Source: an uncultured Eubacteriales bacterium (GTDB lineage Bacteria > Bacillota > Clostridia > Oscillospirales > Oscillospiraceae). From it: DNA of 50,535 bases. Within the stretch, counting starts at the first letter, position 1; every line of letters starts with the position of its first letter. The translations under genes and the position numbers were made by a program. Shown piece by piece: positions 7,026 through 42,630 of this stretch. The notes beneath the pieces were generated by a model, which ran no database searches, was not told where the DNA came from, and saw only the letters and a list, made by a program, of their open reading frames with translations. The DNA lies in assembly GCA_900546915.1 (NCBI GenBank), contig UREY01000015.1, positions 1 through 50,535 on the forward strand. Direction: 5' to 3'.

Positions 7026-8123
7026 TCACGGCGGACCGGAGCGTGAAATGAGGGCCTCGGGCTCCGCCTGGGGCGGCAGCAAAGTGCGCCGGATTTCGTC
7101 GGCCCATTGGGTGATTCGGTCCTGAATACCGGCAGAAGAAAGGGCCGAGCCGGGATCGTGGGCGGTTTGAAAGAGGCAGAACCGAGGCGGGAGCATCATG
7201 GTCTTGTTCAGACACAGAGCCCCCAAAATCTGGCGGGCCACCAGGTCGCCGCCGGAATAGCCGGAGACCACAATGGCGTACAGGTATTTGTCATACAGGG
7301 TCTGCTGCAAAAGCAGGCTGGTCATCCGGTTGATCAGGGCCATGATGTTGGCGCTGGCGGAGTCGTTGTAGTTGGGGCAGAGCAAAAGCACGGCGTCGCT
7401 GTTTAAAATAGCGGGGAAGACCTCCGTGGGCAGGGCGCCGCCGTAATAGCAGGTGCCGCTGCGGGAGTAGTGCAGGCACGCGGTATACGAGCAGCCCCGG
7501 CAGTCGTAAATAGCGCCGTTTTGGAGGCTGACGGTCTGCAGGTCGCAGGCTTCGGCCAGGCGGCTGCAGACGGCCCGGCCCATGGCCACGGTGTTGGAGC
7601 GCCGGTTGTCCGAGGCGTGGAGCATGAGAACCCGGGGCCGGGCATAACGGGGCGGGGTGAATGCCGCCAGCCGCCGGACCAGCTCCCGGGACCGAAGGAA
7701 ATAGGCCTCCTCCCAAGAGCAGTTTCGCTGTTCGGCTAGGATGCGCTGGTTGTACAGAGAGCCCGTTCCCTCCACCAGAGGCTTGCCGGGCAACAGGCAG
7801 CCGGCCAGATTGGCCGCGAGAGCCAGGGCCTGGGCGGCCTGCTTGGTGTACAGCTCCCCGCTGCCGTCTACGATGAAGGAGCCTACGGCGTCCTGAAGAC
7901 AGCCGGGATGGGTGCGCAGGGCATTCAACAGGGAAAACGCCTGCATGGACATGCCGCCGGGGCCGGTGGTGAGGGCGAACAGGACCCGCCGCCCCTGCAG
8001 CGCGCCGGCTTCCACAGCCGGAAGCTCTGCCCGCTCCACCCGGGTGCCGTCCAGAGCGAATTCCAGCAGGCGGCTCAGCCGGGGCGAGGCGCCGGCTTGG
8101 AGCAGAATTACAGCCTCATGCAT
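7026..8123 (-). CDS. Flavodoxin-like NAD(P)H-dependent oxidoreductase with N-terminal extension
   Basis: A 365-aa protein. Residues about 163-345 form a flavodoxin/NADPH-dependent FMN-reductase-like domain, with HASDNRRSNT (169-178) at the phosphate-binding position, a cysteine cluster DCRGCxxxxC...GTC (207-225) typical of the iron-sulfur/multimeric flavodoxin subfamily, and PNYNDSAS (250-257). The first 160 residues look like a second Rossmann-like domain (FALTTGPGGMSMQAF at 49-63) of unknown function. I choose ATG 8123, with GGAGGA upstream, over an earlier in-frame start. It overlaps the upstream gene by 8 bases, so translation is coupled. Last gene of the long minus-strand block. Substrate unknown. 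Confidence 0.75.
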   Translation of the reverse strand: MHEAVILLQAGASPRLSRLLEFALDGTRVERAELPAVEAGALQGRRVLFALTTGPGGMSMQAFSLLNALRTHPGCLQDAVGSFIVDGSGELYTKQAAQALALAANLAGCLLPGKPLVEGTGSLYNQRILAEQRNCSWEEAYFLRSRELVRRLAAFTPPRYARPRVLMLHASDNRRSNTVAMGRAVCSRLAEACDLQTVSLQNGAIYDCRGCSYTACLHYSRSGTCYYGGALPTEVFPAILNSDAVLLLCPNYNDSASANIMALINRMTSLLLQQTLYDKYLYAIVVSGYSGGDLVARQILGALCLNKTMMLPPRFCLFQTAHDPGSALSSAGIQDRITQWADEIRRTLLPPQAEPEALISRSGPP

Positions 8124-9333
8124 CGGAGAAGTCCTCCAATTCCCGGAAGGCGGCGGCAATCCGCTCTTGGAGCGGTTCCGCCAGGGCCTCCCGGCAGATT
8201 TGCGGTCCCAGGCGGGTCATGCGGCTCCGGCAGCCGAAATAGACGCCGCCCAGTGGAACCGCGCCGAAGTGCTCCCGGCCCCGCAGCAGCTGCAAAATGG
8301 AAACGGCGGCGGAGGAGAGGCCCGGAGCCAGATAGGGCTTGAAGCCCAGGGCCCGCACCCGCAGGTTCATGTCCCGGGTGGCGGCGGTGAGGGCGGCGGA
8401 GGCGGCTGAGTCATAGCCTGCGTCCGGGGCGTTGGCGGCGACCAGCCCGGCTCCGTGGGGGCCGTAAACGCGAATGTCCTCCGGCGGCAGTCCCATCTCC
8501 CGGGCGCAGAAGCGGGCCCGAGCGGCCATGACCCCCAGGCCGAAGCCCTGGATTTGCTCCGGCGCCAGGCCCAGAAAGTCCAGGCGGCCGGTCTCGTCCC
8601 GGTTGCTGTCCAGGAAGACCGCCCGGCACAGGTGGTCCACCGGGTCGGAGATCTGGCAGAACAGCCCCCGGAATTTTGCCTGCCGGGCCAGGCGCGCGTA
8701 CTGGCGGAGCATGGCCCGGTTGGCCTGAAACTGCTGCATCCGCACGTCGCCCCCGGCGCCCAGGGGCGGTACGCCCCGGGAGGCGGTAAACAGAAAGAGG
8801 TCGCAGCAAAACAGCTCCTCCCGGGGGCACAGGCGCACCCGGGGCGTGGGCCCCTCCTCGGGGGAGAGAATCTGATTCATCTCCAGCTCGTACCGGCGGC
8901 AGGCGGCCTCGTTGGGGTCAAAAATGCGAATTTCGTCGATTTCTCTCCCCAGCAGGACGAGCCCCGTGAGAACGGCGCCGCCCACGTCTCCCAGGCCGAC
9001 CAAGGTCACCCGCAGGCCGGTTTTCGGCGCCTGTTGGAAGGACTCCAGCAGCTCCCAGCATCGGGGATAGGCGGGATTCAGAACTGCCGCGCCGTGCCGG
9101 GCTACGAAATCCGAAAGAGGACCGGCAGGCGCATCCGGCGGGGGGACCAGGGCCAGGGGACATTCCTGGCCCACTTCGGCCAGGGACTCCACGGGATACA
9201 GGCAGCGGCCGGTACCGGGGGCGGCGGGGCGCAGAAGGAGCAGGGGAGCAAAGGGGGCGGAAACCGGAACGGCCTCCGCCGGAAATCCGGACTCCCCGGC
9301 CAGGCAGTAGGAACGGTATTGTTTATAGACCAT
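8116..9333 (-). CDS. Lactate/malate dehydrogenase-superfamily protein
   Basis: A 405-aa protein with a roughly 105-residue N-terminal extension before a Rossmann domain (VGLGDVGGAV at 112-121, acidic FDP at 138-140). SDPVDH (229-234) corresponds to the NPVD motif and GPHG (291-294) to the catalytic-His loop of the LDH/MDH superfamily. The family's usual length is about 310, so this is an extended, divergent member, and its substrate cannot be stated. It overlaps the giant gene upstream by 11 bases and the flavoprotein gene downstream by 8, which suggests the three products act together. Confidence 0.75.
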   Translation of the reverse strand: MVYKQYRSYCLAGESGFPAEAVPVSAPFAPLLLLRPAAPGTGRCLYPVESLAEVGQECPLALVPPPDAPAGPLSDFVARHGAAVLNPAYPRCWELLESFQQAPKTGLRVTLVGLGDVGGAVLTGLVLLGREIDEIRIFDPNEAACRRYELEMNQILSPEEGPTPRVRLCPREELFCCDLFLFTASRGVPPLGAGGDVRMQQFQANRAMLRQYARLARQAKFRGLFCQISDPVDHLCRAVFLDSNRDETGRLDFLGLAPEQIQGFGLGVMAARARFCAREMGLPPEDIRVYGPHGAGLVAANAPDAGYDSAASAALTAATRDMNLRVRALGFKPYLAPGLSSAAVSILQLLRGREHFGAVPLGGVYFGCRSRMTRLGPQICREALAEPLQERIAAAFRELEDFSDA

Positions 9334-12300
9334 GGATGACCTCCGTCCTGGAAATTCGCTGCAGCTGGGTCAGATCGTCGGCCACATAGCTGGAAGCGGG
9401 AACCGACAGGTCGTAGCGCAGGTGCCGTCCACGGTCCGGCAGCCGGGGCCGGTACAGGGCCTCCGCCAGCCGCTCCAGAGTCAGGGCAGTGGTAAAGATC
9501 TCCAGATGCCGCCGCTCCAGAGCGGAGAGAATGTCCCGGGCGTTTTCCAGGACGGCTTTGGACAGGCGGATTCTCGTCTGGTTGTCCGAACCGGGGACAA
9601 AGGTGGGATTGACGTAGGGCAAAATCATGTTGATGGACGGCCGCTTCCAGCTGAAATCCCCCGGCCGGTCGATGCTGTCCCCGCCCACGAAGGGGTAAAG
9701 GCTGCTCTCGGTGAGCCAGTGGTTGAGATTGGGAATGAAGTACTCGCAGTCCACGGTCTGCCCCTGGGTCAGCATCAGGTCCCGGCCTTGGCCGGACATG
9801 AGTCCCACCACAATGCTCCGGACCTCCACATGCTCTTCTTTAAAAATGTGGTCCAGGGCGTGGATCCGGTGGCCCCAGTGCAGCAGGTCGTCCACCAGAA
9901 TGACCGGGCGGCGGAAGGATTTGATGGTCCGGACCTGACCGGTCAGGGAGGAGTAGCCCGGAGCCTCCAGGATGGTGAAGCGCTCCATGTCGGCCTCGTA
10001 GACCTTATCGGCGTGCAGGGTTTTGGTGACGGTGTTGGGCACGACCTCGTCGGCCAGAATTTTGCCGTAGGGCACGCACATGTACGGGCCCAGGCGGCGT
10101 TGACCGGCGGGGACGTCCAGAACCTGGTTGTGGGCCTGGACCTTGTGCCACAGGCTTTGATTCAAGGTCTCGGCGTCGAAGGACAGCAGGAGCCTTCCGG
10201 GAAACAGGGCCGAGAGGGCGGAGCGGAGCTTGGGCCGGGTCTTTTCCACGGCCTGCCGGATGGCGTCGTCGCTGCGCAGGGGCTCTTTCATCCAGAGAAA
10301 CACGTCCTGAATCAGCACCATCGGCGAGCGCATGTCTACGGACAGGATATCCGGCTGTCCGGGAATCGGCAGGAAGCCCAGCTGGAGCAGCTCCTGATAC
10401 AGCTGCTCCGTGCCGTTGCAGCGGCACAGGGCGTAGGTGTGGTCGGTTTTCAGGCTCCGGGCCAGGAGCTCGTTGACCAGCTGGCGGCAGGCCCCCTGGG
10501 TCTGGGGGGAGAGAGAGACCACGCTGTCGACCATCATGATGCGCCCGGAGGTGTGCCGTCGGACGTAGGCGGCGGCGTCCTGGGAACCCAGGGTTTCCAG
10601 CAGCTGGGAGCTGGTGACGGTGTGGCCGCAGACCCAGCCCAGGGGCTCCCGGGCGGAACGGGCCCGCAGGAGAATGCCCCAGCTGCCCCGGTGGCTGTCC
10701 ATGGTGGCCCGCAGCAGCGGCGGCAGGGGAGCCTGGCTCTCCCGGGCCCGCTCAAAATAGAGGTCGCCGGGCGCCAGGACGTTTTTGAACTGGGGGGAAC
10801 GCAGATACAGGCCGTTGGCGTAAATGTAGGACTGAACAATGGGATCGACCAGCATGGAGATGTCCAGATTTTTGTCCACATACTCCCGGATTTGGGTGGA
10901 GCTGATGCCCTCGCACCAGGCGGGCAGCGAGACCAGCTGCCACTTGCCCCGGAGAATTCGGGCCAGCTTTTCTCCGGCGGTCCGGTCTGCGGCCCGGCGG
11001 AAGACCACGTGGCTGTAATACCGGGCCGAGCCGGGGGCCTCCGACTGATAGGCCGAGGCGCCGAAGATCACGTCGCTGCCTGCAGCCAGGTACAGCTCCC
11101 GGCCCGGGAATTTTTCCGCCAGGGCGGCCAAATCCTCGGGGCTGGCAATGTTGATGGGCATGTTGTCCGGAAACAGATAGACGTCCCACAGGTCCGCCAC
11201 GGAGATGGCGGCAATTTTCCGGCGCAGCAGCTTGGGGATGGTCCGCTTGCTCCAGGAGAACTCGTCGATGGCCAGATAGACCTCCAGGCCCATGTCGTGA
11301 ATGGCCCGGACGATTTCCTTGTGCCCGGCGGAGAAGGGATCGAAGGTCCCGGGGAAAAAGGCCACGGGCCGTGGCTCCGGGAAGCGGAGCGCCGTTCCGC
11401 TCACCTCGCAGGAGACGATCAGACGGTACAGGTGATTCAGCATGGCGGCGTGGTTATAGAAGGTGAGCGGGTCCCTGGCCGGCTCATGCAGCAGGCACAG
11501 CAGCTTCTTGCCGGTGCGGACCAGGCAATCCCGGCGGATTTCCTGGGAGATGGCGGGATTTCCAAACACGCTCCGGCACAGGACGGACAGGGCGGTTTGA
11601 TGGATCAGGGCGTCGTAATGGGCGATGCCCGTAAGCAAAAGACCCAGCACCCGGCTGGACACGGAGGTCCGCTGGTAGCCCTGAGGCTCGGTCAGCATGG
11701 CGCCCAGGGTGTGCAGCGCGGCGCTGGCCGCCCGGAGAGAGCCCTGGTGAATCAGATCGTCCAGGTAGTCCAGCCCTTCCAAAAGCTCCTTGTCCGGCAT
11801 TTGGCAGATGAGGCGGCCTAAGAAGGGCGGAATGTAGTAGGAAATCTGCTCCTGCCCCGTCTCCAGCTCCCGGGTCAGGTCCACCACAATCTCATTGCGC
11901 TGGTCCACGGTCAGGTAGGGGACCAGCTGCAGCAGGGCCGCGCCGGCGTGCTCCCGCACCGGCAGGTGCTCGCTGACGGACAGCAGATTGGAAAAGTGCA
12001 TGGCGGTGTGAAAGGCCTCGCTGGGGTTGGCCTGGACCAGGTTCTGGAGGATGTCGATGTGGACCAGCTTCACCGACCAGTGCACCGCGTTTTTCAAATT
12101 GCTCAGGAACAGCTCGCTGGTGTCGGCCTGGGGCAGGGGAGCGTCGTGGCCGCAATACCGGTTTAATAAGACCGCCCGCTGATAGCAGACGGCGAAGGAC
12201 TCCCCGGGGTCCAATCCGGTCAAAACCGGCTCCAGAACGGAGGCCGTATGGGGCTTTTGCTCCAGGATATGCCGGAAGCAGCGGAGAATGGTGAGGCGGA

Positions 12301-14047
12301 GGGGGACATCCGGGTCCGCCAGCAGGCGGCAGAGGGTGCTCAGAACGCCGTCCAGACCGGCCGGTTCCATGGCGGACGTGGGGACATAGGTCAGGGCGCT
12401 CACCAGGGCCTCCCGTTCCTCCTCCACGGCCTCCGACAGGCGGCGCAGCAGCGGCCGGGCCATGACCTGGGCGTCATAGTCCGAGCAGGCCGAGAACAGA
12501 CTGTCGGTAATTACCTTTAAGCTGTCGGCGATGCGCTGGGCGTGCTTGGGCGAGATTTTCCGGTCGGGGTGCAGGCACAGCTGAATCTGCTCGTCCCAGA
12601 GCCGCTCGGCCTCGGCAAAATAGCCCATTAAGGTGGGGGCGTAAGCGGTGGCGGGCGCGTCGGCGGGGAGCTCCTTCCGGTACGACGGGCCGCTGTTGGC
12701 CAGGATACGGCCCATGATCCGGGCGGCGCGCCGGCGAACGTCTCCCTCCCGGTGCATGAGCAGCTCGTATAAAAAGTTCAGAGTCATCCGCTTGCTGTGC
12801 CGGGGCATATAGCTGTTGTACTCCTCAAACAGCCGCAGGTAGGTGCGGATGCGCTGGAGGTTTTTCTCGCTTTTTGCCTGCTCCAGCAGCTGCTGGAAGG
12901 ACGCGTCGGTGCTGAAGGTGTCCATAAGGCGCAGGCTGTTGTCGAAGGTGAGATGGCGCAGGCCGGTGATGGCCTCAGGTCCGGTGCACAGGGCCGGGGC
13001 CTGAACATGGGCGGGCTGAGGCGCTGAAACCGACAGATCCGCCGCCACCCCCCGGGAAGCCAGAAAGCTCTCAAAATCCCGGAGCTTGGCGTATACGGTG
13101 GCGTACCGCCGGAGCTTCTCCGGGGTCATGTCCGACAGCTTGGAGAGGATGATGGAATAGGAGTCCTCCAAACTGTAGATTTTTGTATGCTCCCGGCCCG
13201 CCTCGTCCCGCAGGGCCCGAACGCGGAAATCGGCGTAAATCAACAGAAGGGACTCCATGGGCAGATTCTCAAATTCCAGGTCCCAGGTGGAGTGATTGGC
13301 CGCCACGTGGGCAATGTGGGGAAGCCCCCGGTCCGACAGGTACTGCCAGGTGAAGTAGTAATGTAGATAAGGCGTTCGAGGCGCATCCTTTCCCCGGCAG
13401 CCGAACTTTCCGATGTCGTGACTGAGAGCGGCTGCGCTGACCAGGGCCACGTCTACCTTGAGCCCGGCCCGGTGGGCCAGCCGGGCGGTGTGCACGGCTA
13501 CATTGTTGACGCCGATGGTATGGCTGGCCGGATCGAAGGGCATGCAGTCCCGGCCGATGCGCAGCAGCGTGGGGAACCGGTCCTGCAGGACGGCGGTGCG
13601 GAAGGCCCGGTACTCTCCGGCCAGGCGGCTGTCCGCCAGCTCCTCCGGCGTGGCCCAGTGGGGGTCCAGCAGAGGGTCGAAGGGGCAGAAGACCGCTTCC
13701 TGAGCCAGAAGCCACTCCAGGACCTGCAGGTAAAAGTCCATGGCGCCGAGGGCCTCCTCCGAGGCGGCTGGGCGGGCGGGATTCGGAAACAGACCGGCGG
13801 CCAGGGTTTCGTAGAAAAAGCGAAGCCAGCCCTCCTCCGGCTCGGGACAGAGCCGGTCCAGGACCGGCCGGCAAAGGGCCAGAAGCTTGCCGCAATGGGT
13901 GCGCTGCCCCTGAAACTGCAGGATGCCTTCTTCAAACCGGCAGCTGTGCAGCAAATGAATCAAGCCCCTCCGGTTCAGCCCCAGACGGCGGGCGAAGCAG
14001 TGGCAGAGGGAATCCACCAGCGGGGTGAGATCAAAGCTTTTCTCCAT
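9323..14047 (-). CDS. Giant multidomain protein: HD, helical repeats, nucleotidyltransferase, GNAT-like, PRTase-like
   Basis: A single uninterrupted 1574-aa frame. Visible parts in order: an N-terminal helical region (1-150); an HD-type metal-dependent phosphohydrolase (H186, H210-D211 in SHDIGK, H251); a helical-repeat stretch resembling HEAT/ARM repeats (about 380-870); a NadD/cytidylyltransferase-like domain (FPGTFDPFSAGHKE at 898-911 and ISSTQIREYV at 1048-1057; the first His of the HxGH signature is Ser); a GNAT-like segment (about 1110-1235); a phosphoribosyltransferase-like domain (about 1300-1440) with VILVDDLLHWGHR (1382-1394) resembling the PRPP loop. The ATG at 14047 has AAGGAGG upstream. 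It is about 120 bases behind the PPC gene and overlaps the dehydrogenase-like gene by 11 bases. No signal peptide or membrane segment is seen, so it is probably cytosolic. Function unknown. The chemistry suggests nucleotide or NAD-related sensing or metabolism, but that is inference. Confidence 0.85.
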   Translation of the reverse strand: MEKSFDLTPLVDSLCHCFARRLGLNRRGLIHLLHSCRFEEGILQFQGQRTHCGKLLALCRPVLDRLCPEPEEGWLRFFYETLAAGLFPNPARPAASEEALGAMDFYLQVLEWLLAQEAVFCPFDPLLDPHWATPEELADSRLAGEYRAFRTAVLQDRFPTLLRIGRDCMPFDPASHTIGVNNVAVHTARLAHRAGLKVDVALVSAAALSHDIGKFGCRGKDAPRTPYLHYYFTWQYLSDRGLPHIAHVAANHSTWDLEFENLPMESLLLIYADFRVRALRDEAGREHTKIYSLEDSYSIILSKLSDMTPEKLRRYATVYAKLRDFESFLASRGVAADLSVSAPQPAHVQAPALCTGPEAITGLRHLTFDNSLRLMDTFSTDASFQQLLEQAKSEKNLQRIRTYLRLFEEYNSYMPRHSKRMTLNFLYELLMHREGDVRRRAARIMGRILANSGPSYRKELPADAPATAYAPTLMGYFAEAERLWDEQIQLCLHPDRKISPKHAQRIADSLKVITDSLFSACSDYDAQVMARPLLRRLSEAVEEEREALVSALTYVPTSAMEPAGLDGVLSTLCRLLADPDVPLRLTILRCFRHILEQKPHTASVLEPVLTGLDPGESFAVCYQRAVLLNRYCGHDAPLPQADTSELFLSNLKNAVHWSVKLVHIDILQNLVQANPSEAFHTAMHFSNLLSVSEHLPVREHAGAALLQLVPYLTVDQRNEIVVDLTRELETGQEQISYYIPPFLGRLICQMPDKELLEGLDYLDDLIHQGSLRAASAALHTLGAMLTEPQGYQRTSVSSRVLGLLLTGIAHYDALIHQTALSVLCRSVFGNPAISQEIRRDCLVRTGKKLLCLLHEPARDPLTFYNHAAMLNHLYRLIVSCEVSGTALRFPEPRPVAFFPGTFDPFSAGHKEIVRAIHDMGLEVYLAIDEFSWSKRTIPKLLRRKIAAISVADLWDVYLFPDNMPINIASPEDLAALAEKFPGRELYLAAGSDVIFGASAYQSEAPGSARYYSHVVFRRAADRTAGEKLARILRGKWQLVSLPAWCEGISSTQIREYVDKNLDISMLVDPIVQSYIYANGLYLRSPQFKNVLAPGDLYFERARESQAPLPPLLRATMDSHRGSWGILLRARSAREPLGWVCGHTVTSSQLLETLGSQDAAAYVRRHTSGRIMMVDSVVSLSPQTQGACRQLVNELLARSLKTDHTYALCRCNGTEQLYQELLQLGFLPIPGQPDILSVDMRSPMVLIQDVFLWMKEPLRSDDAIRQAVEKTRPKLRSALSALFPGRLLLSFDAETLNQSLWHKVQAHNQVLDVPAGQRRLGPYMCVPYGKILADEVVPNTVTKTLHADKVYEADMERFTILEAPGYSSLTGQVRTIKSFRRPVILVDDLLHWGHRIHALDHIFKEEHVEVRSIVVGLMSGQGRDLMLTQGQTVDCEYFIPNLNHWLTESSLYPFVGGDSIDRPGDFSWKRPSINMILPYVNPTFVPGSDNQTRIRLSKAVLENARDILSALERRHLEIFTTALTLERLAEALYRPRLPDRGRHLRYDLSVPASSYVADDLTQLQRISRTEVIHGL

Positions 14048-14166
14048 GGAAAGCCTCCTTGGCGTGGTTCCCTCCCGGAGGAAGGCCGGGAGGGGAAAGG
14101 CAAGTGGAATCGGGTGAAATGCCCCGGCAGGAAAGCCCTGGGGCGGACCGATTGGCTCCGGTGGAA

Positions 14167-14592
14167 TCAGACGCCGAAGGCCATGAGGTTCAGGCCGGTC
14201 TCCGGGTCCGGTTTACGCTCCACCCGGCCGTCCAGGACTGTGACCACCAGCTCGCAGGTGGCGCTGATCACGGCGCGGTTCAGATGCCCGCCCCAGACCC
14301 GGCCCTCGTCGTCGCCGATGCTGATGTGGAAGTGGCCGTAGGGCCGGCCGTCCTGGGTGGTGAGAGTGCCGTGCAGGCAGATGATTTCAAAGTCTCCCTG
14401 AAATTCGTGGGACCGGTACTGCTTGGTGACCGGGGAAAAGACGCCGGCCGTCACCTGGTTCACGGCGCCCAGGCCGTTGACGGAGGCCAGGGTGATATGC
14501 TCCCGGCGGGCCAGGTCCAGCAGGCAGTCTACAATTTCTTCCCCCCGGTCCAGGCGGACAATGAGCGTATGTTCAAATTTTTGGTATTCCAT
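14167..14592 (-). CDS. PPC/DUF296 domain protein
   Basis: A 141-aa stand-alone PPC domain (plant and prokaryote conserved, DUF296). In plants this fold is joined to AT-hooks; bacterial single-domain forms are trimers of unknown role. Visible are GLGAV (residues 42-46), the metal-binding-type block GRPYGHFHISIGDDEGRVWG around 87-106 followed by GH, and TCELVVTVLDG. I choose ATG 14592, with GGAGG 7 bases upstream. It overlaps the 3' end of lysC by 20 bases, so it is translationally coupled to aspartokinase. Confidence 0.85.
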   Translation of the reverse strand: MEYQKFEHTLIVRLDRGEEIVDCLLDLARREHITLASVNGLGAVNQVTAGVFSPVTKQYRSHEFQGDFEIICLHGTLTTQDGRPYGHFHISIGDDEGRVWGGHLNRAVISATCELVVTVLDGRVERKPDPETGLNLMAFGV

Positions 14593-20685: not shown

Positions 20686-21546
20686 TCAGGTGTGAGAGAG
20701 CTCCGGAAAATGGAGCGTTCCGTCGGCAAAGGGATTTTCTCCGCCTTCCAGGACGAACAGCGCGTCGCCGTCGTCGTCCGGCTCCCGGCGGCAGGAAGCG
20801 GGCTCTGTGGGGGTAAAGCCCAGAAGGGCCTCCCGAACGCCGGGCCGGGCCAGCTGGGCAATGGCGGCGTCCCGGTCGCTGCCGCCGAACAGGTCCAAGC
20901 AATGCAGGCTGTCTCCCTCCTGCCGGGCGACGGCCACGGCGTTTTGCCGGGGCAGGTAATAGAGGCAGTCCTTCCAAAGCGAGCGGCAGTAAAACATCAG
21001 AAGTCCGAAATTCTCCACCACCTGACAGGCCGAAAAGGGGTTCCCTGTTTCATAGCAGGCCCGGAGCACGGACAGGTCCCGGGGAGAATCCGGGTTCAAA
21101 GGACGCGCTTCGCCCAGAGGCGCGGCCACCGGGAGGATGTACCGGCTTTGGGCGGCCCGGCGGAAACCGAACCGGGGATAGAAGTCCAGAACGGTCTCAT
21201 TGGCAAACAGGAACATGCCGTCGCACCGGCCGGACCAATCCCGGAGCACCTCCTCCATCAGCCTGCGGGCCAGGCCCCGGCCCCGGTGGCCGGGGCGGGT
21301 CATGACGGTGCCCAGCTGGATGTAATGGCGCCGCCGGCCCTGCAGCAGAACCGTCAGGCGGTTCACCGAGACGTTGGCCAGAGCGGTATCCCCGTCAAAC
21401 AGGGTGTAGGGCAGGTTGGACGCAGTCCAATACCCGGCTGCGTACCAGTCTTCAAAGGACAGGCCGAAGACCTGAGACGCCAGGGCGTCGAAGGCCCGGC
21501 GGGCTTTGGGGTCCGGCATGACGTTTTTATGAATTTGATATGCCAT
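20686..21546 (-). CDS. GNAT-family N-acetyltransferase
   Basis: A 286-aa protein with an N-terminal GNAT domain: the acetyl-CoA loop RPGHRGRGLARRLMEEVL is near residues 85-102 and YPRFGF near 124-129. The C-terminal 120 residues form a second, less conserved half, as in two-domain (Eis-like) acetyltransferases. Substrate unknown. The ATG at 21546 has GGAG upstream. It is the second gene after the DNA glycosylase (29-base gap). Confidence 0.85.
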   Translation of the reverse strand: MAYQIHKNVMPDPKARRAFDALASQVFGLSFEDWYAAGYWTASNLPYTLFDGDTALANVSVNRLTVLLQGRRRHYIQLGTVMTRPGHRGRGLARRLMEEVLRDWSGRCDGMFLFANETVLDFYPRFGFRRAAQSRYILPVAAPLGEARPLNPDSPRDLSVLRACYETGNPFSACQVVENFGLLMFYCRSLWKDCLYYLPRQNAVAVARQEGDSLHCLDLFGGSDRDAAIAQLARPGVREALLGFTPTEPASCRREPDDDGDALFVLEGGENPFADGTLHFPELSHT

Positions 21547-21575
21547 TTTTTCTCCTTTTATCTTGTCTGGTTGTG

Positions 21576-22148
21576 TCACCGGAAGGCCTTGCCGCCGGAG
21601 ACGTGGGGATTGCCGGGGAGGAAGAAACGCCAGGGGTAATCCCGGGCCTCTCCGGCGTAATCGATGCCGATGCGGCGGGACCGGGCGACGTCCTGGGGGG
21701 AAAAGCCGTCGTCCAGCAGATACAGGCGGTCTTGGCACAGGTCCAGGCCGTAGCAGTCCCGGGTGATGGCCAGGGCTTGGCAGAGCTTGCCGGGGCCCGC
21801 GCCGTCCCGGCGCAGGTCGCCCCACTCCGGCGCCGGGGCTACGGCCCGGAGCAGCACCGCCTGGGGCTGATCCACTGTGGCGGCTACGACGTTCATGCAG
21901 CAGTGCATGCCGTAGATGAGATATACATAGGCGTAGCCCCCGGGGCCGAACATGACCTCCGTCCGGGCGGTGCGCCGCCCGCCGTAGGAGTGGGCCGCCC
22001 GGTCCTGGGGGCCCCGGTAGGCTTCCGTCTCCACAATCCGGCCTGCCAGGGTCCGGCCGTCCAGACGGTGCACCAATATTTTGCCCAGCAGCTCCCGGGC
22101 CACGGTCAGGGAGTCTCGGGTGTAAAATGACCTGGTGAGTTTTTCCAT
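21576..22148 (-). CDS. mpg: 3-methyladenine DNA glycosylase (AAG/MPG family)
   Basis: A 190-aa base-excision repair enzyme of the alkyladenine glycosylase family. Visible signatures are ARELLGKIL, the catalytic region RIVETEAYRGPQDRAAHSYGG (37-57), the DNA-intercalating/active segment GPGGYAYVYLIYGMHCCMNV (68-87) and GPGKLCQALAI. Length is typical. The ATG at 22148 has AGGAGG upstream, plus its own promoter at 22169-22197. Confidence 0.95.
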   Translation of the reverse strand: MEKLTRSFYTRDSLTVARELLGKILVHRLDGRTLAGRIVETEAYRGPQDRAAHSYGGRRTARTEVMFGPGGYAYVYLIYGMHCCMNVVAATVDQPQAVLLRAVAPAPEWGDLRRDGAGPGKLCQALAITRDCYGLDLCQDRLYLLDDGFSPQDVARSRRIGIDYAGEARDYPWRFFLPGNPHVSGGKAFR

Positions 22149-22168
22149 AGCGGCCTCCTTTTTCTGAC

Positions 22169-22382: not shown

Positions 22383-22444
22383 GTTTTTCTGCGCAAAAGT
22401 AGGACGCGCCTGCCCGGATACCGGGGCGGGGGTCCAGCCATGAA

Positions 22445-22634
22445 TTCCTGTAGGTCTTCTGACTTGTGTCTCAGGCGATAGGACCCTCTGCCTTCTCAGG
22501 TTGCCCCAATGACTGACTTGCGTCAACGAGGGAGATATCTCGACACTTACAGCGCCGGTTCGCGCGGGGATTTGCACCCCATTGTCTTGTTACAGCGCGC
22601 CGGCCGCGGAGCGTGCCGGAGCGCCACAGGAATG
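22445..22634 (-). ncRNA. Cobalamin riboswitch
   Basis: The minus strand carries the hallmarks of the cobalamin aptamer: GGGGTGCAAATCCCC (22580-22566), then GGCGCTGTAA (22555-22546), and the 3' B12-box-type AAGTCAGAAGACCTACAGG (22465-22447). The closing P1 helix is visible: ATTCCTGTGG (22633-22624) pairs with CCTACAGGAAT (22455-22445). A terminator follows. No cobalamin synthesis or transport gene lies downstream, which is unusual. Confidence 0.88.
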
Positions 22635-22652
22635 ATTGGATTGTCCGCCCTC

Positions 22653-36265: not shown

Positions 36266-36537
36266 TATCTGCATCCCGACTTTTCCGGAAACGGGCAAGC
36301 ATCCCCTGCATAGAATGTTCACCGGCTTTGGATTTTCCGCCGTCCGGGTCCCGGTTTCCCCGCCGCCGGCCGGGGGAAAGCGGAGGACCTGCGCCCTTTC
36401 CGGTCGCCCCGCAGGCCCGGGAAAAGCCTGCCCGGCGCAGAGCCTTTCGTTCCCTCCGAGGGAAGCTTCCTTTGGGTTATTGTGCCGCTTTCTTACCGGC
36501 GGCGTGATAATAAAACGCAATCTTGAGGAGGTACCAG
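36266..36537 (+). other. Long untranslated stretch before the subtilisin-like protease
   Basis: About 270 bases with no gene. It holds several short hairpins (GCAGGC..GCCTGC near 36410-36432, TTCCCTC..GAGGGAAG near 36450-36466, GCCG..CGGC before the ribosome site). It may be a structured leader; I could not place a convincing promoter. Confidence 0.35.
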
Positions 36538-39500
36538 ATGATGAGAAGGCAATTTCGAAAGTGGGCCGCCTTGGCCCTCTGCGCCGCGTTAGTCCTGGGC
36601 TTAGCCGGACCGGCGGGCGCGCAAGGCGGCTCCGCCCCGTCTCCGGCCAAGGCAGAGCAGTGCGTGTATGCCCAAGCCGACGAGACCACCTTTGTTCCTG
36701 CGGGATACACCTACGTTTATGAAGGAGAGAACGGGCAGTCCTATACCCGCGTGGCAAACAACGACATGTACATCACAGGCCGCGTCCTCACAGCGGCGGA
36801 GGCCGAGAGCCTGGCGGAGCTGTCCGGGGGAGAGGCCGGATACATGACGGCGGAGGACGGCTCGGCAGTCACCTGCCGGGAATTTGACGCCAAGGAGGCG
36901 GCCGCCTGCTCCGCCGCCGTGCAGGAGATTCTGGGGGAGGCTTCGCTGGAAGAGGGGCAGACGGTCAGCGTCCTCAGCCAGACCTATGGCCCCTCCAGCC
37001 TCGTCAAGGTGATGATCCTCCTGGACGCCGATTCCGTCAGCCAGATGCAGACCATGCAGGTTCATCTGGGCGAGGCAGTGGGCGCTGCGGAGCGAGACGC
37101 CATGCAGGCCCTTCGCCGCCGGCAGCAGTCCACGGTGCAGGCCATCAATCGGGAGCTGGGCTACGATATCCAGGTCAGCGGAAGCTTCACGCTCCTGACC
37201 AACGCGGTGTCGGCCACGGTAAAGTACGCCGATCTGGCGGCCATCAATCAGATGGACGGCGTGAAGAAGGCCTTTCTAATGCCCAGCTACCGGGTTCCGG
37301 AGATCCAGGCCGGGCAGAGGGAGGGCGGCATTTCCCCCAACCTGAAATACGCCGCTCCGGCCATGGGCGCCGAAGGAGCCTGGGACCTGGGATATCGGGG
37401 CGAGGGGATGAGCATTGCCGTGCTGGACACCGGTCTGTGCTACGAAAACCCCTCCTTCTCCATAGAGCCGTCCGACCCCGCCCGGGCGGCCTTCAGCCGG
37501 GATGACGTGGCGGACCTTCTGGATGCCGGCGTTCTGCATGCCCAGGCATCCACCGACGGCCTCACGGCGGATCAGGTGTATTACAGCAGCAAAATCCCCT
37601 ATGGCTACAATTATGGCGACGGCCGGGCCGATTACGGCTCCGACGACGAAACCATGTTCGGCCATGGAACCCACGTGGCCGGGATTGCCGCCGGCAACCT
37701 GGTGGAAGAGGCCAAGGAAGAATTCGACATGGACTCCATGGGCATGGCCCCCGAGGCCCAGCTGGTTGTCATGAAGGTCTTCGACTCCGACGGCGTTTGC
37801 TACCTGGATTACCTGGTGGCGGCTCTGGAGGACGCCATTTTGCTGGGGGTGGACTGCGCCAACCTGTCTCTGGGCTCCGCCTGCGGCCCGGTGTACTACG
37901 AGGGGGTCACCGAGGTTTATGACGCGGCCGACCGGGCTGGCATCCAGGTGGTGGTTTCCGCCGGTAACGACGCCTCCACAGGGTATCGAAGCTATTGGGG
38001 CGGGGGCATGGTGGAGTCCAGCTCCGTCTCCACCGGCACGGTGGGGATGCCCGGCTCCTTCGACTCGGTGCTGACCGTAGCCAGTGTGGAAAACGACGCC
38101 GAGATCAACCTGGGCGGCGACACGGTCAGCTGGTACAACGCCGAGGCAGGCCTGCGCCAGTTCCTATCCTACGCCGAATGGGAAGATATCCCGGAGGGGA
38201 AGGGCTTTCGGGAAAACCTGGTGTCCCGGGAGCTGGCCTTTACAGACACCTGGGACGATGCGGCGGGAAAGCTGGTGTTTGCTCCCTTTGAGGGCGGCAA
38301 TGCCGACTCCATCGCCGCTGCGGCCGCTGAGGCCGGAGCCGCCGGCGTCCTTCTCTATGATCCCACGGTCACGGCGGAGGAGGCTTACGGCTATGTTGAT
38401 TTTACCCTGACCCGGTTTGACGTGCCCATGGCGGCGACCAACCTGGTCCAGTACGACTGGATGCTCCAGCAGGGCCCGGAAGGCGGCCTGCTGCGGGTGG
38501 ACGATTTTTGGAATCCCAGCGCCACCGCCGGTCAGATGTCCGGTTTCTCCTCCTGGGGACCCACCGACGGACTGACCCTGAAGCCGGAAATTGCCGGCAT
38601 CGGCGGCAATGTATTTTCCGCATATTACGGCGACTACTATGCTTTGGCCTCCGGCACCTCCATGGCCGCCCCGGCTGTGGCCGCCGCGGCGGCTCTGGTC
38701 CGGCAGTCTCTGGAAGAAACGGATTTGACGGAGTCGGAGATCACCCGCGCCGTCAATTGTCTGCTGATGAGCACCGCGACGCCTGTTGTGGACGAAGCCC
38801 ACGGGACCTATTACCCCGTCCGGCAGCAGGGCGCGGGCCTGGTTCACGCCGCTGCCGCCGTCGCCTCCCAGGCCTACCTGCAGGTGGAGGGCACCAACAA
38901 GGCCAAGCTGGAGCTGGGCGACGACCCCGACCGCACCGGCAGCTATGAGATGACCTTCCAGGTGGTGAACCGCTCCGATGCCCAAAAGGTCTATACCCTG
39001 GATACCACCGTTCTGGGGCAGGTGGCCCAGAGCGGGCAGATTAAAAACGGAGAAACCACCTATCTGGTACCCGGCTACGCCCGGGAGCTGGATGCGGACG
39101 TCCGCTCCAGCGTCCCGGGCGGCACGGTCACCGTCCCGGCCAACTCCTGCGTGGAGATCACGGTCACGGTGAATCTGTCGGCGGACGACCGGGCGTATAT
39201 GGACGAGCGCTTTCCCTACGGCTCCTATGTGGAGGGCTTCGTGCAGCTGCTCAGCGACGAGACGCCCAATCTGAGCCTGCCGTTTTTGGCCTTCTACGGC
39301 GACTTCGGCCAGGGGCCGGTTCTGGAGGAGGGCGCCTATGACACCCTCCTGGGCGGCGACAAGGCCTATACCACGGCGGACCAGTTCCACAATGCCATTT
39401 GGAGCAGCCTCCCCGCCTACAGCCAGGAGGAGCTGGCCGGCTTCGGCGGCAGGCTGTTTTATCTGGGAGACAGCCGGGGCGTGGAGAACGAGAAGGTGCC

Positions 39501-41115
39501 GGCGGCCAGTATGTCGGATCAGCCGCCCTTCGGCTATCTGCCCTTTTACTCGTCCAACGCCGGAATTTCTCCCAATGGAGACGGAATTCTGGACAGCTTT
39601 TCCCTGGGCCTCGGTCTGAAGCGGAACGCAGCGGCCATTCATTATACCGTGACGGATTTGGACACCGGCGAGGTCCTCTGGGAGCAGACCACGGAGCCTG
39701 TTTCCAAAACCTATTTCAGCGATACCGACAACGCCGTGCTGTACGGCGGCGTGTTTGCCCAGGACGCGCTGTCCATGGATTGGCTGTACCCCATTGTGGA
39801 GGAGGACTGGGACGGCGACGGGGTGACGGACTACGCCTATTACGACACCAGCCGCTGCCTGCTGGAGGAAAATACCTGGGTTTCCATTCAGGCCCAGGCC
39901 ATTGGGGAGTATCAATCTGAAACCCCCAACGCCAACGACACCGTGGCCTTCTCCCTGTATATCGATACCACCGCGCCTCTGAGCCCGGAGCGCTTTGTGT
40001 TCTCCGACCGGAATCCCATGGCAGAGCTTTTCGGAGAAGAGGAAAAAGACGGCATGTATCATGTGAAGATGGAGCATGACGAGTTCTGGTTCCTGGACTA
40101 CGACATGAGCATCAGCCTGGATTACAATGAGACGGCCGGAAGGTGGGAGGGGCTCATTTTCACCACCACCTATGCCTCCCAGCAGCCGGCCCGGGGAGAA
40201 TCCGGCATCAGCTCCAGCGGCTTTTACCCCTTTGATGCCGGCAGCAAATATCTGTATCTGGGCTACGATTATGCCGGTAACGTCTCGGCCTACGAGCTGA
40301 AAGGCGGCGAGAATTTGCTGGATTTGGTGGAGCTGGAGTCGGCCTATGCCGTTGCCGCCCCCGGCGAGACGGTGACCTTGGAGAACACGGCGGAGCATGC
40401 CTTCGGCGTGGAGGTTTCCTGGTCCCTTTCGGAGGATACTGCGGCGGAAATGGTGGCGTCCGACGGAGATTCCTGCCGCATCCGCGCCCGGCAGCCCGGG
40501 GAGCTCACGGTTTCCGCCGGGTTCCTGGATTACTGCCGGTCCGTCCGGCTGATTGTCACGGATCCTGCCGTCACCGGCCGCTATTCCGACATAACCGGCC
40601 ACTGGGCCGAGAAGGAGATGCAGGCCGTCCTTTCCCTGGGGCTCTTCCGGGGGACCGGCAGCGCCACTTTTCGCCCGGAAAGGCCCCTGACCCGGGCCGA
40701 GCTGGTGACGGTTTTGTACCGCATGGAGGGCGAGCCGTCGCTGCTTGCGCAAAATCCCTTCCGGGATGTTCCCGGCAACCGCTGGTATTCCAACGCCGTC
40801 ATCTGGGCGGCGGCCCAAGGCATTGTGACGGGTAAAACCCCGGACCGTTTTGATCCCGACGCGCCGGTCACCCGGGAGCAGATTGCCGCCGTTTTGTACC
40901 GCTACGCGGCCTATCTGGGGGCAGATACCTCCGCCCGAGGGAAGCTGGAGGACTATTCCGATGCCCACCGGATCAGCCGCTACGCGGTGGACGCCATGTC
41001 CTGGGCGGTGGCTGCTGGGCTGCTGCAGGGCGTGGACAGCGCCGCACTGGCGCCCAAGCATAACGCCACCCGCGCCCAAGCCGCCGTTTTGCTGATCCGC
41101 TTCCGGACCCTGTAG
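36538..41115 (+). CDS. Secreted subtilisin-family (S8) protease with SLH domains
   Basis: A 1525-aa exported serine peptidase. Signal peptide: basic MMRRQFRKW, hydrophobic ALALCAALVLGLA, cleavage after about residue 28. A propeptide follows to about 260. The catalytic triad is D297 (AVLDTGL), H376 (FGHGTHVAG) and S708 (SGTSMAAPA). The large H-to-S insert holds a PA-like domain (about 540-660), as in C5a-peptidase/lactocepin-type enzymes. Beta-rich regions follow, with a dentilisin-like SNAGISPNGDGILDSFSLG near 1005-1023. From about 1350 to the end are three S-layer-homology repeats (YSDITGHWAEKEM..., FRDVPGNRWYSNAV..., and one ending the protein) that should tether it to the cell wall. ATG 36538 follows GAGGAGG by 7 bases. 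A single-gene unit. Confidence 0.93.
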   Translation: MMRRQFRKWAALALCAALVLGLAGPAGAQGGSAPSPAKAEQCVYAQADETTFVPAGYTYVYEGENGQSYTRVANNDMYITGRVLTAAEAESLAELSGGEAGYMTAEDGSAVTCREFDAKEAAACSAAVQEILGEASLEEGQTVSVLSQTYGPSSLVKVMILLDADSVSQMQTMQVHLGEAVGAAERDAMQALRRRQQSTVQAINRELGYDIQVSGSFTLLTNAVSATVKYADLAAINQMDGVKKAFLMPSYRVPEIQAGQREGGISPNLKYAAPAMGAEGAWDLGYRGEGMSIAVLDTGLCYENPSFSIEPSDPARAAFSRDDVADLLDAGVLHAQASTDGLTADQVYYSSKIPYGYNYGDGRADYGSDDETMFGHGTHVAGIAAGNLVEEAKEEFDMDSMGMAPEAQLVVMKVFDSDGVCYLDYLVAALEDAILLGVDCANLSLGSACGPVYYEGVTEVYDAADRAGIQVVVSAGNDASTGYRSYWGGGMVESSSVSTGTVGMPGSFDSVLTVASVENDAEINLGGDTVSWYNAEAGLRQFLSYAEWEDIPEGKGFRENLVSRELAFTDTWDDAAGKLVFAPFEGGNADSIAAAAAEAGAAGVLLYDPTVTAEEAYGYVDFTLTRFDVPMAATNLVQYDWMLQQGPEGGLLRVDDFWNPSATAGQMSGFSSWGPTDGLTLKPEIAGIGGNVFSAYYGDYYALASGTSMAAPAVAAAAALVRQSLEETDLTESEITRAVNCLLMSTATPVVDEAHGTYYPVRQQGAGLVHAAAAVASQAYLQVEGTNKAKLELGDDPDRTGSYEMTFQVVNRSDAQKVYTLDTTVLGQVAQSGQIKNGETTYLVPGYARELDADVRSSVPGGTVTVPANSCVEITVTVNLSADDRAYMDERFPYGSYVEGFVQLLSDETPNLSLPFLAFYGDFGQGPVLEEGAYDTLLGGDKAYTTADQFHNAIWSSLPAYSQEELAGFGGRLFYLGDSRGVENEKVPAASMSDQPPFGYLPFYSSNAGISPNGDGILDSFSLGLGLKRNAAAIHYTVTDLDTGEVLWEQTTEPVSKTYFSDTDNAVLYGGVFAQDALSMDWLYPIVEEDWDGDGVTDYAYYDTSRCLLEENTWVSIQAQAIGEYQSETPNANDTVAFSLYIDTTAPLSPERFVFSDRNPMAELFGEEEKDGMYHVKMEHDEFWFLDYDMSISLDYNETAGRWEGLIFTTTYASQQPARGESGISSSGFYPFDAGSKYLYLGYDYAGNVSAYELKGGENLLDLVELESAYAVAAPGETVTLENTAEHAFGVEVSWSLSEDTAAEMVASDGDSCRIRARQPGELTVSAGFLDYCRSVRLIVTDPAVTGRYSDITGHWAEKEMQAVLSLGLFRGTGSATFRPERPLTRAELVTVLYRMEGEPSLLAQNPFRDVPGNRWYSNAVIWAAAQGIVTGKTPDRFDPDAPVTREQIAAVLYRYAAYLGADTSARGKLEDYSDAHRISRYAVDAMSWAVAAGLLQGVDSAALAPKHNATRAQAAVLLIRFRTL

Positions 41116-41137
41116 CTTCTCCGCCTGGGGCCCTTCA

Positions 41138-41177
41138 AAGCCGGGGATTGCCGTTTTGCGGCAGTCCCCGGCTTTTC
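41138..41177 (+). terminator. Terminator of the S8 protease gene
   Basis: AAGCCGGGGATTGCCG pairs with CGGCAGTCCCCGGCTT around TTTTG (one mismatch), ending in TTTT. Confidence 0.88.
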
Positions 41178-41276
41178 CCGGAGGCCTGCGCAGGCCCCGG
41201 CAGGGCCGCAATGGAGGAAAAGGCGCCGGGGCAGCGGCCGGTTTCAGGAGAAATCGGGAAAAGATTTGGTTTCCTC

Positions 41277-41305
41277 TTTTCCTTTTGGGCAAAATGATAT
41301 ATAAT
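41277..41305 (+). promoter_or_regulatory. Probable promoter of the M16 peptidase operon
   Basis: A perfect TATAAT at 41300-41305; the -35 position (TTTTCC, 41277-41282, 17-base spacer) is weak. Confidence 0.55.
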
Positions 41306-41361
41306 GCAGCTACGCCGCCGCCTGCGGGCGGACGGCGGAACGAAAACAAAGGATGTCGGAT

Positions 41362-42630
41362 ATGGAGCAAAAAATAGAATTGTTTTCCGGAGTCTGCCTG
41401 CGGGGCGTGCAGACCGGGCGGTTTAAAAGCGCCTGCCTGAGCTGCAGCTTTCTCCGCCCCCTGCGGCGGGAGGAGGCGGCGAAGAACGCCCTTCTGGCCA
41501 ATGTGCTGATCCAGGGCACGCAGACCCATCCGGATTTGCAAAGCATTTCCCGGGCTTTGGACGGCCTCTACGGCGCCAGCCTGGGCCCCCTGGTGCGGAA
41601 AAACGGTCAGATCCAGACCTGGGGCTTTTACCTGAGCTTTCTGGAGGACCGGTTTGCCCTGGAGGACGACCGGGTGCTGGAGCCGGTGACCGAGCTGCTG
41701 GGGGAGGTGCTCCTCCGGCCCCGGCTGGAGGGCGGGGTGTTTGTTCCGGCTTGGGTGGAGCGGGAAAAGGAGAATCTCATCAGCACCATCGAGGCCGCCG
41801 TCAATGACAAGCGGGTCTACGCCGACCGCCAAATGCTGCGGGCCATGTGCCGGGACGACGGCTTCGGCATACCCCGGCTGGGGGAGCCGGAGGATGTGGC
41901 CGCCGTCACGCCGGAGGAGCTGTACCGCCATTACCTTCGGGTGCTGGGCGCTTCCCAGGTGGAGCTGTTTTACGCCGGCAGCGCGCCTCTGGAGACGGTG
42001 GCGGAGCTTTTGCGCCGGGCGCTGGCGGGCCTGCCCCGGCAGGCGGCGGATCCGCTGCCCTTTGCCCCCATGGGCCGCCGGGCGGAGCCTCAGTATCTGG
42101 AGGAGACGATGGAGCTGACCCAGGGGAAGCTGGCTATGGGCTTTACCACCGGCATCACAACCCAGGATCCCCGCTTCCCGGCGCTGATGGTCTGGAACGC
42201 CCTGTTCGGCGGGGATTTGACCAGCAAGCTGTTCCAGAACGTGCGGGAGAAGCTGTCGCTGTGCTATTACGCGTCCTCTTCGGTCTATGGGGCCAAGGGC
42301 ATCGTCACGGTGTCCTCGGGCATTGACACCGGAAATTATGAAAAGGCCCGGGATGAGATTCTCCGGCAGCTGGAGGCCTGCCGGGCCGGTGAAATCACCC
42401 AGGCGGAGCTTCGGGCGGCCCAGGAGGCCATTTGCTCCAGCCTGCGCACCATTGCCGACGCCGCCGGGCGGATGGAGGATTTTGCGCTCTTCCGCCTGCT
42501 GAGCCGCTTTCCCCTGGATCGGGCGGGCTACCGGGACGCGGTCCTGGCCGTCACCGCCGACCAGGTCGCCAAGATTGCGGCCCAGGTGGAGCTGGACACC
42601 ATCTTTTTCCTGAAGGGAGCCTCGGTATGA
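41362..42630 (+). CDS. M16-family peptidase-like protein lacking the zinc motif (YfmF-like)
   Basis: A 422-aa protein of the insulinase-like M16 fold: internal-repeat architecture with SRALDGLYGASLG, VEREKENL and GKLAMGFTTGI..., but no HxxEH motif, so it is probably a non-catalytic partner. In Bacillota, such a protein paired with an active M16 peptidase is the YfmF/YfmH pair (linked in B. subtilis to EF-P modification). I choose ATG 41362, 9 bases after AAAGG, because the upstream ATG 41353 abuts the ribosome site. Overlaps the next gene by 4 bases. Confidence 0.88.
   Translation: MEQKIELFSGVCLRGVQTGRFKSACLSCSFLRPLRREEAAKNALLANVLIQGTQTHPDLQSISRALDGLYGASLGPLVRKNGQIQTWGFYLSFLEDRFALEDDRVLEPVTELLGEVLLRPRLEGGVFVPAWVEREKENLISTIEAAVNDKRVYADRQMLRAMCRDDGFGIPRLGEPEDVAAVTPEELYRHYLRVLGASQVELFYAGSAPLETVAELLRRALAGLPRQAADPLPFAPMGRRAEPQYLEETMELTQGKLAMGFTTGITTQDPRFPALMVWNALFGGDLTSKLFQNVREKLSLCYYASSSVYGAKGIVTVSSGIDTGNYEKARDEILRQLEACRAGEITQAELRAAQEAICSSLRTIADAAGRMEDFALFRLLSRFPLDRAGYRDAVLAVTADQVAKIAAQVELDTIFFLKGASV

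Follow-up and report, generated by a model that had tools for sequence, protein, structure and literature searches.

The nearest tested precedent for the protein described here is the mycoplasma fusion of NadD with YqeK (JCVISYN3A_0380); in the part of PMC9426524 that treats this fusion, the YqeK domain hydrolyses wrong dinucleotides. We analysed a 50,535-nucleotide stretch of DNA (the window: contig UREY01000015.1, assembly GCA_900546915.1, from an uncultured Eubacteriales bacterium), which encodes a protein, C0, that likewise carries a NadD-type nucleotidyltransferase and an HD phosphohydrolase in one chain. Compared with that account of the fusion, the HD domain of C0 is N-terminal, a HEAT solenoid stands before the NadD-fold domain, GNAT-like and phosphoribosyltransferase (PRTase)-like domains are added, and there are two partner genes, C1 and C2; moreover C0 is not the only NadD of its cell, and its acceptor site differs. 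Our reading, to which we give about even chances, is that C0 is a multi-domain enzyme adenylylating an acceptor other than nicotinate mononucleotide (NaMN), working together with C1 and C2.

C0 (9323..14047, minus strand) is an open reading frame (ORF) of 1574 amino acids with an ATG start, preceded by the ribosome-binding site AAGGAGG (14054..14060, minus strand, read 14060-14054), and is the first gene of the three-gene cassette C0-C1-C2. A first-pass annotation, made from the letters of the window, had described this single frame; it is real and conserved, and it overlaps the next gene (8116-9333) by exactly the 11 bases noted there. Its motifs GTFDPFSAGH (residues 900-909) and ISSTQIR (1048-1054) were both found in the translation, as was VILVDDLLHWGHR, a stretch like the phosphoribosyl pyrophosphate (PRPP) loop. 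The frame is far from chance, with Pfam HD and CTP_transf_like over their gathering scores and many long homologues. Search of predicted proteins with C0 yielded 7792 at E<=1e-3 among 7996 scored candidates, the best 120 of these being 50-100% identical to C0 along 74-100% of its length; with a distant member as query, 809 of 7985 candidates matched, of which the best 120 were listed. Named carriers among the matches listed are Helicovermis, Acidaminobacter, Fusibacter, Crassaminicella, Wukongibacter, Caldisalinibacter and Thermotalea, and the annotation there, where sources give one, is cytidyltransferase or nicotinate-nucleotide adenylyltransferase (NadD). The closest three relatives fetched are metagenome-assembled genomes, two of them titled Faecousia. 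Single-sequence search of the PDB with C0 gave nothing useful, and a literature search (without subscription papers or preprints) found no paper on this architecture. C0 is conserved but unstudied, its order of domains being without description in the literature searched.

The nucleotidyltransferase domain called in the first-pass annotation (residues 893-1084; 10796..11371, minus strand) has the NadD fold: Pfam CTP_transf_like matches with E 1.9e-4 and 22 bits (gathering cut-off 21), and NadD is the closest fold in a fold search with the C-terminal half. The NCBIfam NadD model TIGR00482 gives E 3.1e-10 and 40.4 bits, far under its equivalog cut-off of 112.45; other C0 matches score 31 to 60 bits, against 119 to 204 for the NadD copies over the cut-off. 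Of 30 C0 genomes, 29 encode such a separate NadD, and C0 is not the main NadD of its cell. While canonical NadD is encoded separately, the C0 domain sits in a 1574-residue chain.

Twenty C0 domains were aligned with 20 canonical NadD domains. The nucleotide side, including the GxFDP..H and SSTxIR motifs of the NadD/NMNAT fold, is common to both (G900, F902, P904, H909, R942, G990, D992, R1018, S1049, S1050, R1054). The acceptor side reads differently: where all 20 NadD have P928, P933 and W1000, every one of the 20 C0 domains has D, S and Y; H934 (19/20 NadD) is replaced by K; and position 935, K in NadD, is R in 13 C0 domains, K in 6 and Q in 1, such that the PPHK of NadD reads WSK followed by R, K or Q. 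The aligned C0 domains also lack a Y-T column pair of NadD. We take P928, P933, W1000 and the Y-T pair to be NaMN-binding positions of NadD. The invariant set that C0 has of its own comprises D928, E929, F930, S931, W932, S933 and K934 (DEFSWSK), with N966, Y1000 and H1013. Because the acceptor-side positions carry another invariant set, the acceptor of C0 is probably not NaMN, and the conserved pattern suggests a conserved acceptor unlike it. In a larger set of 292 C0 rows, 286 are alike at ten acceptor-side positions and 289 retain the ten transferase positions chosen; seven HD-region positions are kept in 291/291 rows having sequence there. This set excludes named duplicate loci, loci shorter than 4 kb and listed proteins whose length falls outside 1450-1850 amino acids; the window protein is in it twice (the second time as P0001), and so is L056 (as P0122).

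The HD domain (residues 130-345; 13013..13660, minus strand) is likewise confirmed, Pfam HD matching C0 with E 7.6e-5 and 23.4 bits (gathering cut-off 22) and being found in 30/32 C0 members. Over 84 aligned rows H176, H210, D211, H229, H252 and D273 are invariant. The HD210-211 motif had been read correctly. The first histidine that never varies, however, is H176; H186, given in its place, is His in 30/84 rows (42/77 C0 rows in a second alignment), and the residue given as H251 is properly H252. The HD profile found weak HD-type matches in the PDB, at E 0.014 and above; the lists from fold searches with the N-terminal half (Foldseek, VIA-align) were filled by solenoids. The long helical-repeat stretch noticed earlier is a HEAT/ARM solenoid (about residues 356-885; 11393..12982, minus strand), confirmed by the AlphaFold2 model (predicted local distance difference test score 91.1) and by matches of both fold searches to ARM/HEAT proteins, while Pfam HEAT falls just under its gathering score.

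The HD and NadD-fold domains invite the reading that C0 is a supplementary NadD whose own HD domain proof-reads, as in the mycoplasma fusion, and that it still acts on NaMN or nicotinamide mononucleotide; we consider this unlikely. The combination of HD and NadD in a single chain has a tested precedent in the relevant part of PMC9426524, NadD is the closest fold, position 935 is basic as in NadD, and the six candidate HD ligands, H-HD-H-H-D compared in sequence order only (84 rows), resemble the YqeK set as given in the part of PMC8177086 that describes it. No YqeK model appeared among the NCBIfam matches of C0 at E<=1, the content of that library for YqeK being unchecked. Against an accessory NadD stand the several acceptor-side positions forming another invariant set, the canonical NadD elsewhere in 29/30 genomes, the TIGR00482 score of 40.4 bits where 112.45 is the cut-off, the different order of domains with its intervening solenoid, and the lack of any role for C1 and C2.

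The downstream genes C1 and C2 recur beside C0 when the window is compared with 23 relative loci; by tblastn both are at 21/23, and L060 and L074 have neither nearby. At L066 about 5 kb separate C0 from C1. Among further loci, L081 (Acetoanaerobium noterae) and L115 have both genes; C1 and the beginning of C2 are seen at L084, L086, L087 and L088, C1 at L089 and neither at L083 (only 1.5-kb flanks examined); at L117 and L119 C1 lies near the end of the sequence examined, and the contig of L116 stops shortly after C0. For L074 and L083, C1 is encoded in another part of the genome. Among 391 genomes of the class, C0 is found in 32, C1 in 31 and C2 in 30, each set nested in the previous one. The C0 count is from 35 matching genomes (including G001, the centre) less G152, G241 and G269, which have short NadD-type matches (E ~1e-11); the C2 count is from 42 matching genomes, 30 with C2 (E < 1e-100) and 12 with short FMN_red-like matches. 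Both gaps in the nesting are contig ends: in G322, lacking C1, the contig ends inside C0, and in G381, lacking C2, C1 is cut by the contig edge. The linkage of the three genes is near-obligate, and the same architecture with the same neighbours, which the first-pass annotation proposed to look for in other Clostridia, is there. At L066 and L125 other genes intervene, and a distance of 5-6 kb separates C1-C2 from C0; of the intervening ORFs of L066, one is ammonium-transporter-like and one ferredoxin-like by eye.

C1 (8116..9333, minus strand, 405 amino acids) resembles the lactate/malate dehydrogenase (LDH/MDH) superfamily. Its profile matches 4q3n (named MGS-M5) at E 3.2e-7 and L-2-hydroxyisocaproate dehydrogenase at E 2.4e-6, followed by L-lactate dehydrogenases. 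Invariant in 18 rows are G115, D116, G118, R198, SDPV 229-232, R272 and GPHG 291-294. The likeness to LDH/MDH lies in a Rossmann G-x-G-D-x-G in most rows, in SDPV near NPVD and in the invariant R198, R272 and H293; the difference is a Met at the position aligned with the catalytic Asp and an N-terminal extension of ~100 residues. C2 (7026..8123, minus strand, by reading of the start) overlaps C1 by 8 bases and is a flavoprotein of FMN_red type (Pfam E 3.3e-13, from a longer ORF starting at 8159), like the NADPH-dependent flavin mononucleotide (FMN) reductase family in that domain but different in its N-terminal part of ~160 residues and in four Cys (208, 211, 216, 225) invariant in 17 rows. 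Its profile found nothing useful in the PDB.

A broken transferase site occurs in only three of the 292 C0 rows, L060, L123 and L124, which are second C0 copies in genomes (G300, G342 and G447) that each have an intact C0 beside C1. Neither C1 nor C2 was found around these orphan copies in the ~7 kb downstream of L060, 3.4 kb of L123 and 1.6 kb of L124 examined, and C1 was found in the three genomes only at the intact copy (in G342 as two contig-edge pieces). The ISSTxIR motif is changed differently in each orphan, least in L060, where two alignments disagree on position 1018 (F or R) and the change rests on the SSTxIR motif; HD and PRTase-loop residues are kept in all three. Identity to outgroup cassette copies is, for L060, L123 and L124 respectively, 63, 60 and 56% in the HD domain (cassette copies 64%), and 58, 54 and 46% in the PRTase-like domain (57%). 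Over the NadD domain it is 56, 49 and 37% (63%), which for L123 and L124 is clearly the largest loss. Because the partnerless copies lost the transferase site but kept HD and PRTase-loop residues, the transferase seems to be needed where C1 and C2 adjoin it, and the HD/PRTase part would serve some purpose independently. The gene after the orphan C0 of L060 encodes a DUF362 protein.

The GNAT-like domain (residues 1086-1252; 10292..10792, minus strand) is suggested by secondary structure of the model and by hhalign (31.5%, decoys 0.2 and 7.0%); Acetyltransf_1 is weak in 3/32 C0 members (best E 0.019), single chance families reaching better E-values, and the profile found nothing useful in the PDB. 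By inspection no acetyl-coenzyme A (CoA) loop R/QxxGxG/A is at the expected place, the pattern occurring in 3/32 C0 rows against 17/30 Acetyltransf_1 proteins. The PRTase-like domain (residues 1253-1512; 9512..10291, minus strand) has Pribosyltran matches in 23/32 C0 members (best E 8.2e-4), though not in the member from the window, an hhalign score of 55.3% (decoys 0.4-0.5%) and weak PRTase matches only in the PDB, at E 0.25 and above. It resembles type I PRTases in profile round the PRPP loop, with VDD and G nearly invariant, but reads VDD..xxGxR, with Arg1394 unchanged throughout 84 rows and position 1391 mostly K, where TGxT has Thr; the pattern DDxxxTGxT occurs in 0/32 C0 rows and in 16/24 Pribosyltran proteins of three C0 genomes. 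At six PRTase positions 20/292 C0 rows deviate from KHDDGR. What had been called GNAT-like and PRTase-like keeps moderate fold support at best, and both regions are without the canonical loop, of CoA in one and TGxT in the other. A divergent C0, L138 (G704:C3), has the PRTase loop VILSDEVINRGRT, in which Thr takes the place of the Arg of the other copies, and could show how the loop changed. Stand-alone PRTase relatives gave 295 matches, many of the best 120 lying on short contigs and perhaps being fragments.

If C0 adenylylates an acceptor other than NaMN, its NadD-fold domain would pass an adenylyl (or other nucleotidyl) group from a nucleoside triphosphate to that phosphorylated acceptor, and the HD domain would act as a metal phosphohydrolase on a related nucleotide, be it product, by-product or turnover substrate. 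The PRTase-like domain would bind a ribose-phosphate-type ligand and the solenoid would keep the sites of C0 together, with the dehydrogenase-like C1 and the FMN flavoprotein C2 as dedicated partners making, using or reducing what the transferase site handles. We infer the substrate class, the order of steps and the action of C1 and C2 on one metabolite. The scaffolded nucleotide/NAD-linked pathway of the first-pass annotation would survive in part, as a nucleotide enzyme with redox-type partners, judged from sequence, and the sensor offered there as its alternative is weighed below.

Several observations weigh against this proposal. The acceptor side is not wholly replaced, position 935 staying basic (R/K in 19/20 C0). 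C1 has Met269 (18/18 rows) at the aligned place of what we take to be the catalytic Asp of the LDH/MDH Asp-His pair, His293 being kept in 18/18, and because of this Met C1 may not be a normal dehydrogenase. TGxT is absent from the PRTase-like loop in 32/32 rows, and this domain may be only a binding domain; the list of the C-half fold search was filled by NadD. At L118 C1 is present, and no C2 was found in the 7 kb beyond C1. The three orphan copies form one clade (support 1.0) and so represent one duplication rather than three events; L060 is mildly changed, its N-terminal 129 residues having diverged as much (19 vs 25%) as its NadD domain. Finally, 239 proteins of the 292-row set are the best scorers of two lists, which favours intact relatives.

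A more specific version, tentative and in our estimate improbable, is that the cassette makes and uses a dinucleotide like nicotinamide adenine dinucleotide (NAD), as a second coenzyme system of pyridine-nucleotide type in anaerobic Clostridia. The PRTase-like domain would then yield or bind a base-ribose-phosphate, which the remodelled NadD domain would join to adenosine monophosphate; the HD domain would clear wrong or surplus product, and C1 and C2 would be the dedicated redox enzymes.

That C0 is instead a metabolite sensor or regulator, its domains binding nucleotides and controlling C1 and C2 without catalysis, we regard as decidedly unlikely. The missing canonical loops of the GNAT-like and PRTase-like domains and the solenoid scaffold would suit a sensor, as would the retention of HD and PRTase-loop residues in orphan copies after loss of the transferase site, but the strict conservation of transferase and HD positions exceeds the needs of binding.

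The presence of C0 is patchy: 10/101 genomes of the family, 14/147 of the order at E 1e-3 (3 full length; a single-sequence query, perhaps an undercount) and 8/398 of the phylum, in samples that overlap with one another and with that of the class, and with counts from genomes without completeness values. Over 19 genomes, C0 distances correlate with those of the housekeeping NadD (Spearman 0.84), of C2 (0.84) and of C1 (0.73), and the NadD distances with those of C1 (0.57) and C2 (0.71), all with Mantel p 0.001. Because C0 distances follow those of NadD, descent looks mainly vertical, with losses. A location of C0 on phage or mobile elements was considered and rejected: no phage record matches the relative P0122, and the sole 'plasmid' record is a 2.6-Mb replicon carrying tmRNA and 6S RNA. 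Though titled a plasmid, this record (L081, NZ_CP154629.1, Acetoanaerobium noterae, 2.63 Mb) has the look of a chromosome because the tmRNA and 6S RNA genes are present. An anti-phage or conflict system acting on nucleotides or NAD would fit the patchy presence (8/398 in the phylum, 32/391 in the class) and the large multi-domain protein, yet C0, C1 and C2 have no PADLOC match at E 0.01 (neighbouring genes being outside this screen), phage records are without a match to P0122, and descent is mainly vertical (Spearman 0.84 with NadD); this we hold to be very improbable.

Upstream of C0 the window has genes for an M20 peptidase, an aminotransferase, dapA, dapB, lysC and a PCC-domain protein (14167..14592, minus strand, start and stop read; Pfam PCC E 4.8e-33, run without Met). 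The placing of C0 inside a lysine operon by the first-pass annotation is true locally, but the PCC-domain gene stands between lysC and C0, and of the 30 loci compared by tblastn just two, the window and L073, have dap/lys genes beside the cassette (within the sequence examined, which upstream differs by locus and is about 2 kb for L118). The PCC-domain gene has no match in the other 29 loci and lies outside the conserved cassette. The order in L073 is dapA-dapB-327-aa ORF-lysC-431-aa ORF, the two unlabelled ORFs being ddh- and lysA-like by eye; a lysine riboswitch (L073 18660-18842, minus strand) is upstream of this dapA-dapB-lysC group, which in turn precedes the C0 cassette. That C0 is a lysine/diaminopimelate pathway enzyme, as dapA-dapB-lysC upstream in the window and L073 and the riboswitch of L073 might suggest, is barely credible, since dap/lys genes were not found, within the sequence examined, at 28/30 loci, including the closest three relatives L001-L003.

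Rfam search showed no riboswitch directly upstream of C0 in the window and 19 other long loci (L001-L003, L060, L074 and later loci being outside this search). L066 has an FMN riboswitch ~1.5 kb upstream of C0, which probably serves the two intervening same-strand ORFs and not C0. A terminator or attenuator between the PCC-domain gene and C0 was considered and rejected (folding z -1.39, 16/200 shuffles as good; 7 terminator matches against a chance mean of 6.8). Elsewhere in the window, a Cobalamin riboswitch (22432-22641, minus strand, 43.1 bits) lies upstream of a GNAT-domain ORF (20689-22155, minus strand), and an S8 subtilase of 1530 amino acids (36523-41115, plus strand) has Fn3-like and three SLH stretches; a 1522-aa ORF opposite it (38164-42732, minus strand) has no Pfam match at E 0.001.

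C0 occurs in about one in twelve of the genomes sampled from the class (32/391) and, where sources give it a name, is labelled NadD or cytidyltransferase, yet it is not the main NadD of its cell and NaMN is probably not its substrate. With its near-constant redox-type partners, it points to a new nucleotide pathway in anaerobic bacteria. If C0 does adenylylate an acceptor other than NaMN together with C1 and C2, a conserved three-gene nucleotide/redox pathway would have been overlooked in anaerobes, and models that assign C0 to NAD synthesis would be wrong.

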